Positions 8,956 through 46,413 of a DNA stretch of 64,000 bases are shown here, piece after piece; position 1 is the stretch's first letter, and the number at the start of each line of letters is the position of its first letter. Under the pieces are notes generated by a model that had not been told where the DNA came from, did not search any database, and worked only from the letters and a program-made list of their open reading frames with translations. A program made the position numbers and the translations under genes. The stretch is from Blautia sp. Marseille-P3087 (GTDB lineage Bacteria > Bacillota > Clostridia > Lachnospirales > Lachnospiraceae), in NCBI RefSeq assembly GCF_900120195.1, contig NZ_LT635539.1:1225257-1289256 (forward strand), read 5' to 3'.

Positions 8956-9132
8956 GTTTTTCCTCCGTAATCTGTTTTATTTGTAAGCTGTTTCATATTT
9001 TCATTTTGTATAAAAATCTGTTTTGATCTTAGATTATCATACCATGTCGTCCTGTTCATCTCAACTATAAATCTACGGTCTGTCAATGCCTCCCAAACAA
9101 CCAAATACAAATTAAACCAACAAATTTTCGTG
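8956..9132. other. Intergenic sequence without a recognised gene
   Basis: AT-rich sequence upstream of the esterase. A 65-codon minus frame (8952-9149) overlaps the esterase start, has no ribosome site and resembles nothing recognised. Confidence 0.3.
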
Positions 9133-9390
9133 TCAAAAATGACCACCAAAAAAGCAAGTCCAGAACAAGTCCACGAATTCTCAAGCTACCAATGACTCCA
9201 GCAACAGTAAGTACAAACAAAGTCCACAAAATCCGAGTAAAACAGATGATTTAAATAGAAGTAAGTACTCCGAAAGTCAATAAATCCGTCGAAAAAAGAT
9301 GGTCTAAATAAAAGCAAGTATCCTGGTAGTCAAAAAGTACACCGAAAATAGATGGTCTAAACAAGTACAAATACCAACAAGGTCATTCAC
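9133..9390 (-). repeat. 53-bp degenerate tandem repeat array 1
   Basis: Read on the minus strand, this holds about five units of 53-54 bp. Each begins with GACT, carries TACTTACTT or ACTTGCTTTT about 12 nt later and GTCATC or ACCATC about 28 nt in. The units are diverged, so spacing and the short cores are what identify them. The same unit makes up arrays at about 17.5, 42.8 and 45.4 kb. The array lies between the divergent esterase and ECF S-component genes. Confidence 0.7.
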
Positions 9391-17465: not shown

Positions 17466-17775
17466 TTGGTTGACTTGGTTTTGTGTAACTCTGGATCAAG
17501 TCATCCATTTTCGGAGCTTCCATTGACTCCCAGATGACTTTCCTATTTCACAGGCATCCGATTTGAACGATTTTGGGTACTCTCCTCTTACTTACTCCTT
17601 GTATAGTCATCCTTTTTTACAAATTCTGTTGACCTCCTGGTAACTTGCTTTTCTCCTAGTCAACCGATGCTACGAATTCCGGTACCTCTCTGGTAACTTG
17701 CTTTTCTCCTAGTCAACCGGTGCTACATATTCTGCGGACTTTCACTTAACTTACTCTTCCCCCGGTCATCCAATC
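17466..17775 (+). repeat. 53-bp degenerate tandem repeat array 2
   Basis: Six units of 52-54 bp. Each begins with GACT, GACC or GTAC, has an AACTTGCTTTTC or ACTTACTCC type core about 12 nt in, and an AGTCAACC or AGTCATCC core about 28 nt in. Two adjacent units (about 17631-17735) are nearly the same, which points to recent duplication inside the array. It interrupts the citC relic and runs up to structured repeat copy 2. Confidence 0.75.
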
Positions 17776-17790
17776 CCCTTCCCCGCCCGT

Positions 17791-42810: not shown

Positions 42811-43225
42811 GTGGACTTAGCATCTATTTACTCATTCTTAGGGTATTCAATTTCAAGGCAATTTTTGACTCACTTTGCACTTACTCTTCCCTGGACCATC
42901 CAATCCCAGATCAGTTTTTGACTCACTTTGCACTTACCCTTCCCTGGACCATCCAGTTTACAAGTATTTTGTTGACTTTGCATGTATTTTCCCATACTAT
43001 GGTCATTCACATCCGTAATTTTCGTGTACTTTTAACAAACTTACTTATTTACAGGTCATTTCTCACCTGAATTTCTGTTGGTCGCAGCTAGGCTTCCCCT
43101 CCCACAGGTCATTCCCAAACCGTAGTTACAAAGCTGAACAACTCTTACTTTTTTTCATTAGACAGGTCTATCCTGAATTTGTATTTACCTGCTCTGTCAT
43201 ATCCTTTTCCCAGGTCATTCATATT
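42811..43225 (+). repeat. 53-bp degenerate tandem repeat array 3
   Basis: About eight units of 50-54 bp. The first clear pair (from about 42872) begin GACTCACTTTGCACTTAC and are nearly identical for about 36 nt; later units keep GACTT or GTACTT at position 1, ACTTACT about 12 nt in, and GGTCATTC or GGACCATCC about 28 nt in. Positions 42947-43083 are practically the same as 45592-45728 in array 4. The array separates FUSC from the accessory gene pair. Confidence 0.8.
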
Positions 43226-43254
43226 CTGCCGGTCCGTACAGTCGGCTTTCCTTT

Positions 43255-44268
43255 TTACATAAATCTCCTCATTCCTTCGCGAAACTCTTCTATAATCGGC
43301 AATTTTTTTACCCGTCTTAATTTAATCCCACATATCTGGCAGATTTGCTGCACTCCAGCTTCAACTAAAATATTCGATACTCTCACTTCTTTTGGTGCAC
43401 CATACTGAAAAATAAATCCTATCAATTCTTCTGCCAGAGAAACAATGGTATCATCCTCCGGTTGCTGCAATTCACATTTCAGCATCATTCCAGATTTAGC
43501 ATCCGCAATCATGCAAGTCGCCGGATTAGCAGGTCGCTTATATTTTTTATCATTCACCGAAACTCCAAGAATTGCTATATCTGCTTCTAAAACAGCATTA
43601 CATTTTGATGCTTTTCTCAAATCTGCCATCAATTCCTCATCTGTAATAATCAGATTTCCAAATTGGAATGATGAAAATGGTAGTGGTTTAGCGCCAAAAT
43701 TCCATGACTTTTTATCTTCTCCAAACTCAAAATAGTACATTTCACCCTTTTCGAAATCCACATCAACCTGTACACTTTCATATTGTTGCAATGCTAATTC
43801 CAGATTAAGAAAATAATTAGTCATTCGAATAACTTCATCCTGATTCATATTATAGGGATAATACCCTGCCTCAAAAGACTGAAAATATAACCATTGGTTC
43901 TTTCCTCTGTATTTATATCCCATTTCTTTGATATTTTTTCTCTGTTTATCCGTTAATTCCTCTCTGTTACCCCAATAACATGTCAGATTATTTTGAGAAA
44001 ACATAACATAATCTATCGACAGATTTAGCTGCTCCTGCATTGTAAGCATCATGAAATCATTTAGTCCTTCATATCCTTCATATACAACAATCCCATAACA
44101 GTCCCCACCATGTCCCAGTATACTGTAAAACGTTGTGTCTTCTTCGTTTCCCTACCGTATTCCGATAATATCCAGATCCCAGAATTTATTCCATGGCTTC
44201 ATTTCTTTTATTCTGGTTGCAACTTCATACAATTCTTTCCATTGCTCAATCGTAGCTTCTTTTCTCAT
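43255..44268 (-). pseudogene. DUF7309/DUF6930-like protein gene with one in-frame TAG
   Basis: Reading from ATG 44268, which has AAAGGGGAAC just upstream, gives 338 codons in one frame to the stop at 43255, broken only by a TAG at 44154-44152 (codon 39). Before it: MRKEATIEQWKELYEVATRI and on to WDLDIIGIR; after it: GNEEDTTFYSILGHGG. The coding look is the same on both sides and no frameshift is needed. Downstream ATGs at 44052 would give a 265-residue fragment but have no ribosome site. The family is one of uncharacterised Clostridia proteins resembling DUF7309/DUF6930; that assignment is tentative. It may be a fresh nonsense mutation, a sequencing error, or a read-through codon. Confidence 0.75.
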
Positions 44269-44448
44269 ATGTTCCCCTTTACCTTAATTCTGGATTTGAA
44301 TTTCAGTTTTCTGCATATTCATATTCTTATCGTAGTCAAATACAATATTACTCCTACCTGAATTATTACATATGCACTCCAAAGCCACAACAACATTTTA
44401 CAATACTTCAAATAATTTTCAAAATCATCTGCTGTAACGGTGTCTACA

Positions 44449-45249
44449 CTATAACAGATATTCCTTTACAAGACTCTCCACAACTTTCATATCCAATCCA
44501 TCCTGCAAAGTCTCAAATGTCAGAATCAACTTTTGTCCTGGAAAAATCCCATTTTTCTCGTAAGTTTCAATCTTCCTGATAGCATTTCTTGCATACTCAG
44601 GATCATCCATTCTCCCATCATGCTCCCAGTAGATTTCTTCTCCTGTTTTCCGGGATAAAAATGTAAAATCCGGATAAACTATGCCAAATCCTTTCAGGAA
44701 AATTGGATGCTCGTATTTATACGAAATGCCTGCATGATAAAAATAGTCTGCCAGAATCTTCTCTGATTTTGAGCGTACACGCTCCCCTTTTGCAGTTGTT
44801 ATGATCGGAATATTTTCAGCAAACGCTTTACTCTTGTACGCTTCTTTTTCCCATTCATTTAAACGCTGTTCCCATGTTGGTCGCACTGGCTGAATCAGCT
44901 TCTGTCTCTCAGGATGTTCTTTCGTATATAATTGTTCAATTTCATTATCCTCATAATCCTTCAAAAGTCTTCGAAGCTGCTCCAGACGTTTCTTCACCAG
45001 ATTGCGCAGTTTATTGTCATATGTATTTTGCGCCAGTCTGGTCGGAAGTTCTTTGTCTGACTTTGAAATATAGATATCCTTTTTCTTATTATTTTCATTC
45101 GGAAAATGATGAAAGTAACGTACTTTATTCTTGTCCATTGAAATTCGTAAAGTCCCTTCCAGCGCATCTGCCTTCGGCTCCCCAATTCCGCTCAGAATCT
45201 CTTTCAAACACTTTTCTTCCTCTAATAATTTCTGTTTTAATCCATACAT
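44449..45249 (-). CDS. PD-(D/E)XK nuclease-like protein
   Basis: 267 residues from ATG 45249, which has AAGGAGG upstream; the longer frame to 45291 is less likely. The first 140 residues are charged and probably coiled-coil (LKQKLLEEEKCLKEIL; LVKKRLEQLRRLLKDYED). The C-terminal 120 show a restriction-endonuclease-like pattern: SKSEKILADYFYHAGI, then YPDFTFLSRKTGEEIYWEHDG, giving the E...D...ExH/K metal site. No methyltransferase or helicase is nearby. It may be a stand-alone nuclease of a defence or mobile unit; it sits between repeat array 4 and the TAG-broken gene. Confidence 0.72.
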   Translation of the reverse strand: MYGLKQKLLEEEKCLKEILSGIGEPKADALEGTLRISMDKNKVRYFHHFPNENNKKKDIYISKSDKELPTRLAQNTYDNKLRNLVKKRLEQLRRLLKDYEDNEIEQLYTKEHPERQKLIQPVRPTWEQRLNEWEKEAYKSKAFAENIPIITTAKGERVRSKSEKILADYFYHAGISYKYEHPIFLKGFGIVYPDFTFLSRKTGEEIYWEHDGRMDDPEYARNAIRKIETYEKNGIFPGQKLILTFETLQDGLDMKVVESLVKEYLL

Positions 45250-45395
45250 GTGGTGTCCCTCCTTTATTTTTATTGTGATTCTGTAGAACATTAGAGATTC
45301 AAATTAGAATGAACATATAAATATATGAAAGCTTGATTATTTCATTAATTTATTTGAAACATACCTGAATTATAGCCATTTCTATAGGAACCGTA

Positions 45396-45757
45396 TTGAC
45401 TTATTTTAGACTTACTCCTACGTAAATCATCCGATTTTCCATTATAAACATGTTCGGTGACTTTCAGATAACTTCCTCTTCCCGTAGCACACCATTTCCG
45501 ACATTTTTATGGACTTCCACAGCACTTACTCTTCTATAGATCATCTGATTTACATTCATTTTTTGACCTGTTCAATACATACTCATCTTCAGACCATCCA
45601 GTTTACAAGTATTTTGTTGACTTTGCATGTATTTTCCCATACTATGGTCATTCGCATCCGTAATTTTCGTGTACTTTTAACAAACTTACTTATTTACAGG
45701 TCATTTCTCACCTGAATTTCTGTTGGTCTATCCTGTATCTACTTTTTTCCAAGTCAT
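45396..45757 (+). repeat. 53-bp degenerate tandem repeat array 4
   Basis: About seven units. The pattern is the same as in the other arrays: GACTT or GACC at unit start, ACTTACT or ATACATACT in the middle, and GATCATC, GACCATCC or GGTCATTC near position 28. Contains the second copy (45592-45728) of the 137-bp segment of array 3, with one base different. It lies between the nuclease-like gene and rpsI. Confidence 0.8.
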
Positions 45758-46020: not shown

Positions 46021-46413
46021 TTATCGTTTAGAGAACTGAGGTGCTCTACGAGCTGCTTTGAGACCGTATTTCTTACGTTCTTTCATACGTGGATCACGAG
46101 TAAGGAATCCAGCAGCTTTAAGAACTGGTCTGTATTCAGCGTCTGCTTCAAGAAGGGCTCTTGCAACACCATGTCTGATGGCACCAGCCTGTCCTGTGTA
46201 TCCGCCGCCTGTTACGTTAACGAGAACGTCAAATTTGCCTTCTGTTTCTGTTGCAGCAAATGGCTGACGAACGATAACTTTCAGAGTCTCTAATCCGAAG
46301 TATTCGTCGATATCTCTTTTATTGATTGTGATTTTGCCTGTACCAGGTGTAAGGTAAACTCTTGCGATTGATTTTTTTCTTCTTCCTGTTCCGTAGAATT
46401 TTGCGCTAGCCAA
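46021..46413 (-). CDS. rpsI: 30S ribosomal protein S9
   Basis: 130 residues with the canonical beginning ([16 protein letters not shown]), [20 protein letters not shown] in the middle, and the C-terminal tail ending in QFSKR that reaches the P-site. It follows rplM by 16 nt, the universal bacterial pair. Confidence 0.98.

Follow-up and report, generated by a model that had tools for sequence, protein, structure and literature searches.

A PD-(D/E)XK-type nuclease gene and its private upstream repeat array in Blautia sp. Marseille-P3087 and related bacteria

Genes and arrays at the locus

In this work we analyzed a 64,000-nt stretch (the window) of the 3.30-Mb genome of Blautia sp. Marseille-P3087 (contig NZ_LT635539.1, positions 1,225,257 to 1,289,256), in which a nuclease gene is accompanied by tandem arrays of a degenerate unit of about 53 bp. 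Two of these, arrays 3 and 4 (Table 1), run in the same orientation and enclose the nuclease gene and a second gene with DUF7309 and DUF6930 domains; the outer neighbors of the pair are FUSC on one side and rpsI/rplM on the other. A first-pass annotation from the sequence had described this layout, and its account of the arrays, of a nuclease-like PD-(D/E)XK protein and of an early TAG in the second gene was borne out. It had further taken the arrays either as recombination borders of a two-gene cassette or as substrate or target of the nuclease. Our analyses showed that the arrays belong to the nuclease and not to a two-gene cassette. The nuclease gene is the core of the locus, and the DUF7309/DUF6930 gene is a passenger that tblastn did not match at any of 86 other nuclease loci (a set in which at least one gene is counted twice, as L104 and L152). 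The 5' end of the passenger gene is cut by an in-frame TAG at 44152-44154, with an in-frame ATG upstream at 44268. The start of the nuclease was set at 45249, a position conserved in relatives; its open reading frame extends to an ATG at 45291.

Both arrays consist of one unit with a period of 53 bp, whose plus-strand consensus reads TTGACTT-N7-ACTTACTCTT-N5-AGTCATCC-..TTT..-AATTT. Among all periods from 20 to 119, autocorrelation of the window ranked 53 first and its double, 106, next. An iterated 53-column profile, trained on the very units it scores, found 24 units in four window arrays with scores of at least 28.9, against a best score of 6.0 in one shuffled window. At its default score, Tandem Repeats Finder (TRF) reported arrays 1 and 2 but not arrays 3 and 4; array 4 is supported by profile matches, covariance model (CM) matches and autocorrelation. 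Arrays 3 and 4 have 152 nt in common at 95% identity. When array 3 served as DNA query against the genome, these two arrays were the only matches. A coding repeat was rejected, since a 53-bp period breaks the reading frame in every unit. The unit contains two dyads, at positions 18 and 44.5. RNA hairpins in it were likewise rejected, with no consensus pairs in 23 units and no covariation in 70, and an Rfam scan of the window matched no RNA family. Nor do the arrays resemble clustered regularly interspaced short palindromic repeats (CRISPR): the whole unit repeats, spacers are absent and neither enclosed protein matched a Cas family.

The AlphaFold model of the window nuclease reached a mean pLDDT (predicted local distance difference test) of 92 and a pTM (predicted template modeling score) of 0.77. 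Its best Foldseek matches were mostly PD-(D/E)XK nucleases, i.e., Bax1 entries (best E 5.5e-3), DrdV, OkrAI and BamHI, none of them below 1e-3. The C-terminal half matched the C-terminal region of the PADLOC model PDC-S68 at E 1.5e-29 and also PDC-S69; HEAT_CxxC_PD-DEXK and RTasRmuC were matched in the same scan. The motifs PDF and WEH-G are invariant across 61 family sequences, and the last motif residue is not lysine. These features place the protein within the PD-(D/E)XK nuclease superfamily, with predicted nuclease activity. No credible family was found in Pfam or NCBIfam (scattered weak Pfam matches occurred in 1-3 of the 61 family members), no sequence relative in the PDB below E 0.4, and the single weak PHROG match (3.6e-5) carries no functional annotation. 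Likewise, Pfam, NCBIfam and PADLOC gave no toxin family and the protein did not show a ToxN-type fold, no HuH/Y1 transposase family or fold was among the matches, and the PADLOC scan returned no BstA match, the presence of BstA among the PADLOC models being unchecked. The reading frame is open in 78 of 80 relatives. We also noted a 1125-aa helicase-like protein in the same genome (L110:4679-8056; G000:C2:2538678-2542055), a stretch of which matches the nuclease domain at E 2.4e-6 and which might resemble PDC-S68.

Table 1. Arrays and genes discussed in the text, in window positions.
Feature	Position	Strand	Description
Array 1	9121-9386	-	Dispersed; unit of arrays 3 and 4 in opposite orientation; TRF, profile and CM matches
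Array 2	17470-17787	+	Dispersed; unit of arrays 3 and 4; TRF, profile and CM matches
Array 3	42812-43236	+	6 units including a degenerate stretch; downstream of nuclease and passenger gene; profile and CM matches
Passenger gene	43255-44052	-	DUF7309 and DUF6930 (Pfam matches); 265-codon frame
Nuclease gene	44449-45249	-	266 aa; N-terminal domain and C-terminal PD-(D/E)XK-type domain
Array 4	45396-45722, weak units to ~45828	+	6 units of ~53 bp; upstream of nuclease gene
rpsI	46021-46413	-	Neighbor on the upstream side of array 4; named from sequence, matched in relatives

Nuclease and array across relatives

A scan of named genomes yielded at least 561 relatives of the nuclease, and the locus analyses used the best 80 of these; the named loci include Mediterraneibacter, Butyrivibrio, Oribacterium, Blautia, Roseburia and Faecalicatena records. 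In the Lachnospiraceae, 102 of 299 genomes (102 of 298 genera) carried a match, 91 of them strong and 11 weak. Roughly three in ten genera sampled from this gut and rumen family have a strong match to a nuclease that bears no Pfam or NCBIfam name. In the order of the window's genome the count was 62 of 294 genomes, nine with weak matches (E above 1e-20). Within the genus, 9 of 60 genomes matched, our genome included; in G041 and G051 the match sits in a frame of ~1237 or 936 aa, which leaves a stand-alone gene in 7 of the 60. Some genomes hold at least eight paralogues.

The array accompanies the nuclease across many genera. A TRF array with a period of 35-130 bp was present within 1.5 kb upstream of the gene in 56 of the 80 relatives, downstream in 11, on either side in 58 and elsewhere in the locus in 14. 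In 700-nt segments, the best autocorrelation period fell at 51-55 bp for 59 of 67 taken upstream of the gene, compared with 13 of 75 taken downstream and 66 of 551 taken at a distance. Scores above the 95% level of the distant segments were obtained for 58 of 67 upstream segments (54 of them at 51-55 bp) versus 27 of 551 distant ones (4 at 51-55 bp). The gene was relocated in 234 loci, giving 191 genes less than 98% alike, 183 of them with at least 300 nt of upstream sequence; 117 of these 183 had a TRF array (30-130 bp) within 1.2 kb upstream, and the median gap between array and gene was 127 nt. Within the genus, arrays of 51, 63 and 84 bp adjoin the gene in G020, G066 and G075, 53-bp arrays lie on both sides of it in G063, and no array was found at the nuclease gene of G064 (L108). 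Clear downstream arrays of the same unit occurred at 7 of 54 loci tested (L117, L120, L124, L133, L148, L165 and L183), and also at L106 and in the window.

The units are private to each nuclease. No pair of paralogues from the same genome had related units (0 of 14; best score 37 at a cut-off of 40, with shuffles at about 14). Related units were found in all 21 pairs with 85-98% protein identity and in none of 4435 pairs with 25-45% identity.

Unit length is quantized in helical turns, with lengths near 53, 63, 74, 84 and 95 bp. TRF periods of the 117 arrays fell at 51-54 (73 arrays), 61-64 (18), 70-75 (16), 83-84 (2) and 94-95 bp (2); the remaining ones were 108 (once, twice 54), 115 (once) and 36, 39, 41 and 58 bp (once each). 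For periods above 56 bp, phasing was pronounced among 40 genes (R 0.76, p 8.6e-11) and persisted after clustering at 60% protein identity (n=32, R 0.69, p 2.2e-7, best modulus 10.5 bp with a phase near zero) and at 50% (n=26, R 0.77, p 1.9e-7). The 19 of 40 divergent paralogues (by list order) with a TRF array had periods of 53-54 (2), 62-64 (8), 73-75 (7), 70 (1) and 115 bp (1). Mapped onto a FastTree phylogeny of 112 proteins, the turn class shows a minimum of 24 changes; since this tree is rough, we take the changes only as several independent shifts.

The units carry inverted arms, for example AACCGTA/TACGGTT or TTGACT/AGTCAA. The longest stem averaged 6.0 versus 3.7 in shuffled units (p <= 0.05 in 19 of 54), and a symmetry score over the whole unit was weaker (mean z 1.0, above 2 in 11 of 57). 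Seven Mediterraneibacter-type genomes have conserved arms and a variable loop. At L117, L119, L120, L121, L132, L138 and L140 a strongly conserved leader of ~150 nt lies between the last unit and the start codon; its features are a last unit of variant sequence, an additional half-site at a distance of one further period and, ahead of the start codon, a hairpin.

Possible function of the array

We propose that nuclease and array form a conserved two-part chromosomal locus, in which the dyad-symmetric units would serve the nuclease as private DNA sites acting as operator, sink or self-mark; we give this reading a probability of roughly 0.47. The nuclease, probably as a dimer or larger assembly, would bind its own array. 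Since each unit spans whole helical turns, all bound copies would face the same side of the helix, an alignment also seen on iteron arrays. The array would then retain the nuclease at its own locus, where the gene is shut down and the enzyme bound and harmless. Free enzyme might then attack other DNA, most likely that of phages or plasmids. Extra arrays, found downstream here and in some relatives and dispersed in our genome, could be duplicated or remnant sinks. Of the two options in the first-pass annotation, it is the one of the array as nuclease substrate or target that we favor, given its company with the nuclease in many genera.

Homology to PADLOC candidate-defense (PDC) models and the patchy presence within the genus may hint at a role in defense. 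It is possible, if rather unlikely, that the locus exerts self/non-self control via DNA architecture, whereby the home array would restrain the nuclease and DNA without an array would be attacked; in some genomes at least eight such independent nuclease-array pairs, their units mutually unrelated, would coexist. Several observations weigh against our proposal. No upstream TRF array was found for 66 of the 183 genes, nor for 21 of the 40 divergent paralogues, and periods of 36, 39, 41, 58 and 70-72 bp are off whole turns. At 13 rpsI loci outside the system, no autocorrelation score exceeded 0.48, and in 5 of them the best period was nevertheless 51-55 bp, at noise level. Gene neighbors gave no evidence of defense at nuclease loci, and none of 9 pattern matches on viral contigs was confirmed as a nuclease relative. 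Two further points concern RNA. Purines are enriched on the gene-sense strand of the arrays (0.581 in 114 arrays versus 0.513 in 93 pre-array stretches; above one half in 93 of 114), an excess that a transcribed leader would be expected to show, and seven related genomes of one clade share a conserved hairpin ahead of the gene.

We nonetheless lean toward an array that acts as DNA rather than RNA, because of the 10.5-bp rule, the occurrence of arrays on both sides of the gene and on both strands, the lack of significant G-U bias and the position of terminator-like sites, mostly before the array. Mismatches of the G-U type were distributed over the strands as 48 versus 45 in our genome, and across arrays there was no significant strand bias (73 versus 64; 22 arrays versus 14, p 0.24). 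Terminator-like sites preceded the array in 36 of 100 cases (11.6 in shuffles) and lay between array and gene in 6 of 87 (1.2 in shuffles). If array RNA were the active part, the locus would fall under a known kind.

This kind would be a type III-like toxin-antitoxin, the main rival explanation, which we regard as unlikely: transcription of the array would yield a series of RNA hairpins, which would bind the nuclease toxin and keep it silent. In type III toxin-antitoxin systems a terminator stands between the repeats and the toxin gene; in our loci terminator-like sites at this place were rare yet above the count in shuffles, and one clade has its conserved hairpin there. A tandem array that immediately precedes a nuclease gene, belongs to that gene alone and has hairpin arms agrees with such a system, as do the purine excess and the pre-gene hairpin. 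ToxIN, CptIN and TenpIN carry tandem repeats immediately 5' of a nuclease-type gene that differ greatly between loci (PMC4627078; PMC8860590), and the layout is also that of CptIN of Eubacterium rectale (PMC4627078). In contrast, our locus features a PD-(D/E)XK fold without toxin family match, unit lengths that track the 10.5-bp DNA repeat, arm mismatches without significant sense-strand bias and same-unit arrays that also lie downstream or dispersed on either strand.

Alternatively, the array might be a plain operator, which autoregulates a housekeeping repair-type nuclease and has no part in defense or self-restraint. The short distance to the gene and the position behind rpsI in many genomes would suit such an operator. 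A housekeeping gene is, however, hard to reconcile with the patchy presence of the nuclease, with many paralogues per genome whose units are unrelated, or with arrays away from the gene, and we consider this explanation quite unlikely.

None of the known kinds with which we compared the locus was shown to fit it in full. The iterons of plasmid replication initiators are direct repeats in phase with the helix that precede the gene of the protein binding them. Our arrays share the phased direct repeats at whole helical turns, but here the gene encodes a chromosomal nuclease instead of a replication initiator, the units are longer, and binding to the array is our proposal. PDC-S68 and PDC-S69 resemble the window protein by a homologous C-terminal nuclease domain; the PDC-S68 models, however, span ~1200 aa, and the N-terminal domain here is another one. 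To our knowledge, no array is known for either. BstA has a cognate element, aba, located at the gene that encodes it; aba appears to act as DNA, its inner repeats are essential, and it is one 63-bp element that overlaps the start codon and has two terminal direct repeats (PMC8585504). Here, by contrast, the arrays are long and phased and the protein is probably unrelated. We found no description of the nuclease-array pairing in the open-access literature, most subscription papers being outside the search.

Helical quantization yields a sharp and cheap prediction on spacing, namely for changes of 5 bp versus 10 bp. Paralogues with unrelated units in one cell would form a naturally occurring panel of orthogonal protein-DNA specificities; they also offer a way to ask how a cell tolerates several nucleases together.

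Dispersed arrays and the surroundings of rpsI

The unit forms about 15 arrays in the window's genome, mostly beside ordinary genes. A first, sequence-only CM (23 units), for which 150 of 2096 candidates were scored, gave 69 matches with an E value of at most 1; a second one (59 units), for which 150 of 1222 were scored, gave 67 with an E value of at most 0.05. In the inspected neighborhoods we found 11 further arrays besides those of the window (L033-L042 and L111), with 2-8 units each and on both strands; array units throughout the genome irrespective of accessory genes were one half of what the first-pass annotation had named as speaking against its cassette. Under more stringent filtering, with 142 candidates scored in each genome, the second model returned no match at E up to 0.01 in 38 of 40 relatives and one match apiece in the other two. 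In G023 the match consists of a clear unit and a weak one, next to conserved genes that also neighbor an array of our genome. No nuclease was found in G023, whose genome is 83% complete, and a position shared with this genome implies that the array is old. Two near-identical five-unit arrays (L038:5050-5315 and L039:5038-5303) lie 24.5 kb apart in our genome beside different neighbor genes, a sign of recent array duplication.

Elsewhere, a model of the AACCGTA-type unit (150 candidates scored per genome) found no off-locus match in 6 of 7 other genomes; G603 has a second, solo array with cognate arms and no adjoining nuclease. No off-locus array was found in 380 kb of G345. At L133 and L183 a third array lies near the gene on the opposite strand. 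In 343 kb of G063, where the gene is present, there was one other 53-bp array besides CRISPR-type repeats, and 400 kb of the gene-free G004 and G001 contained one 53-bp row with 2.0 copies as well as one 54-bp row that looks by eye like collagen-like coding sequence. As such rows also occur in gene-free genomes, a TRF period alone is no proof of dispersal. Wide dispersal was seen only in the window's genome, and we make no claim of it for the system in general. As an origin of the dispersed arrays, scars of lost nuclease copies were rejected, with no nuclease remnants in the loci inspected. One row in G063 is probably a CRISPR array (C3, L199:355-1326; shared motif GTCACGTCCCGCAAGGGGCGTGTGAGTAGAAAT, 65-67-bp period).

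A nuclease that spreads or maintains arrays genome-wide, as in a selfish repeat system of the REP/RAYT kind, would account for the many arrays of one unit in our genome, the solo array of G603 and the opposite-strand arrays at L133 and L183. REPIN/RAYT systems consist of dispersed palindromic repeats tied to one nuclease-type gene (PMC3116915). Here, however, the repeats are tandem arrays, the protein is of the PD-(D/E)XK and not the HuH transposase type, and dispersal is wide in one genome only; the near absence of off-locus matches elsewhere, the missing nuclease remnants at dispersed arrays and the old array position common to G023 speak against spread by the nuclease as well. We therefore find this explanation very doubtful. 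A role of the arrays as recombination borders, with the two genes as an accessory cassette between them, is highly improbable, the 152-nt direct repeat and the loci with same-unit arrays on both sides notwithstanding: the passenger is matched in none of the other nuclease loci, an upstream array alone is the common state, and the gap behind rpsI showed no one-array empty site in 13 relatives (12 from genomes without nuclease match; the 13th, G025, was outside that nuclease search).

In 25 of the 86 other loci the nuclease gene has an rpsI match on its upstream side, 4.6 kb off in one of them, and the nuclease gene also follows rpsI in G017 and G063, each with arrays of another sequence. Directly behind rpsI, the nuclease-free congeners G021, G010, G008 and G009 (L078, L083, L087 and L077) contain what we take, from their sequences, to be integrase-like frames, accompanied in some of them by presumably phage-like genes. 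Because these frames start right behind rpsI, its 3' end looks like an integration hot spot. A further rpsI-like gene in the window's genome shows 61% identity to rpsI (G000:C2:282499-282876) and makes up the C-terminal portion of a 258-aa frame (L112:2497-3273, minus strand); the frame adjoining it presumably resembles a KAP-type ATPase.

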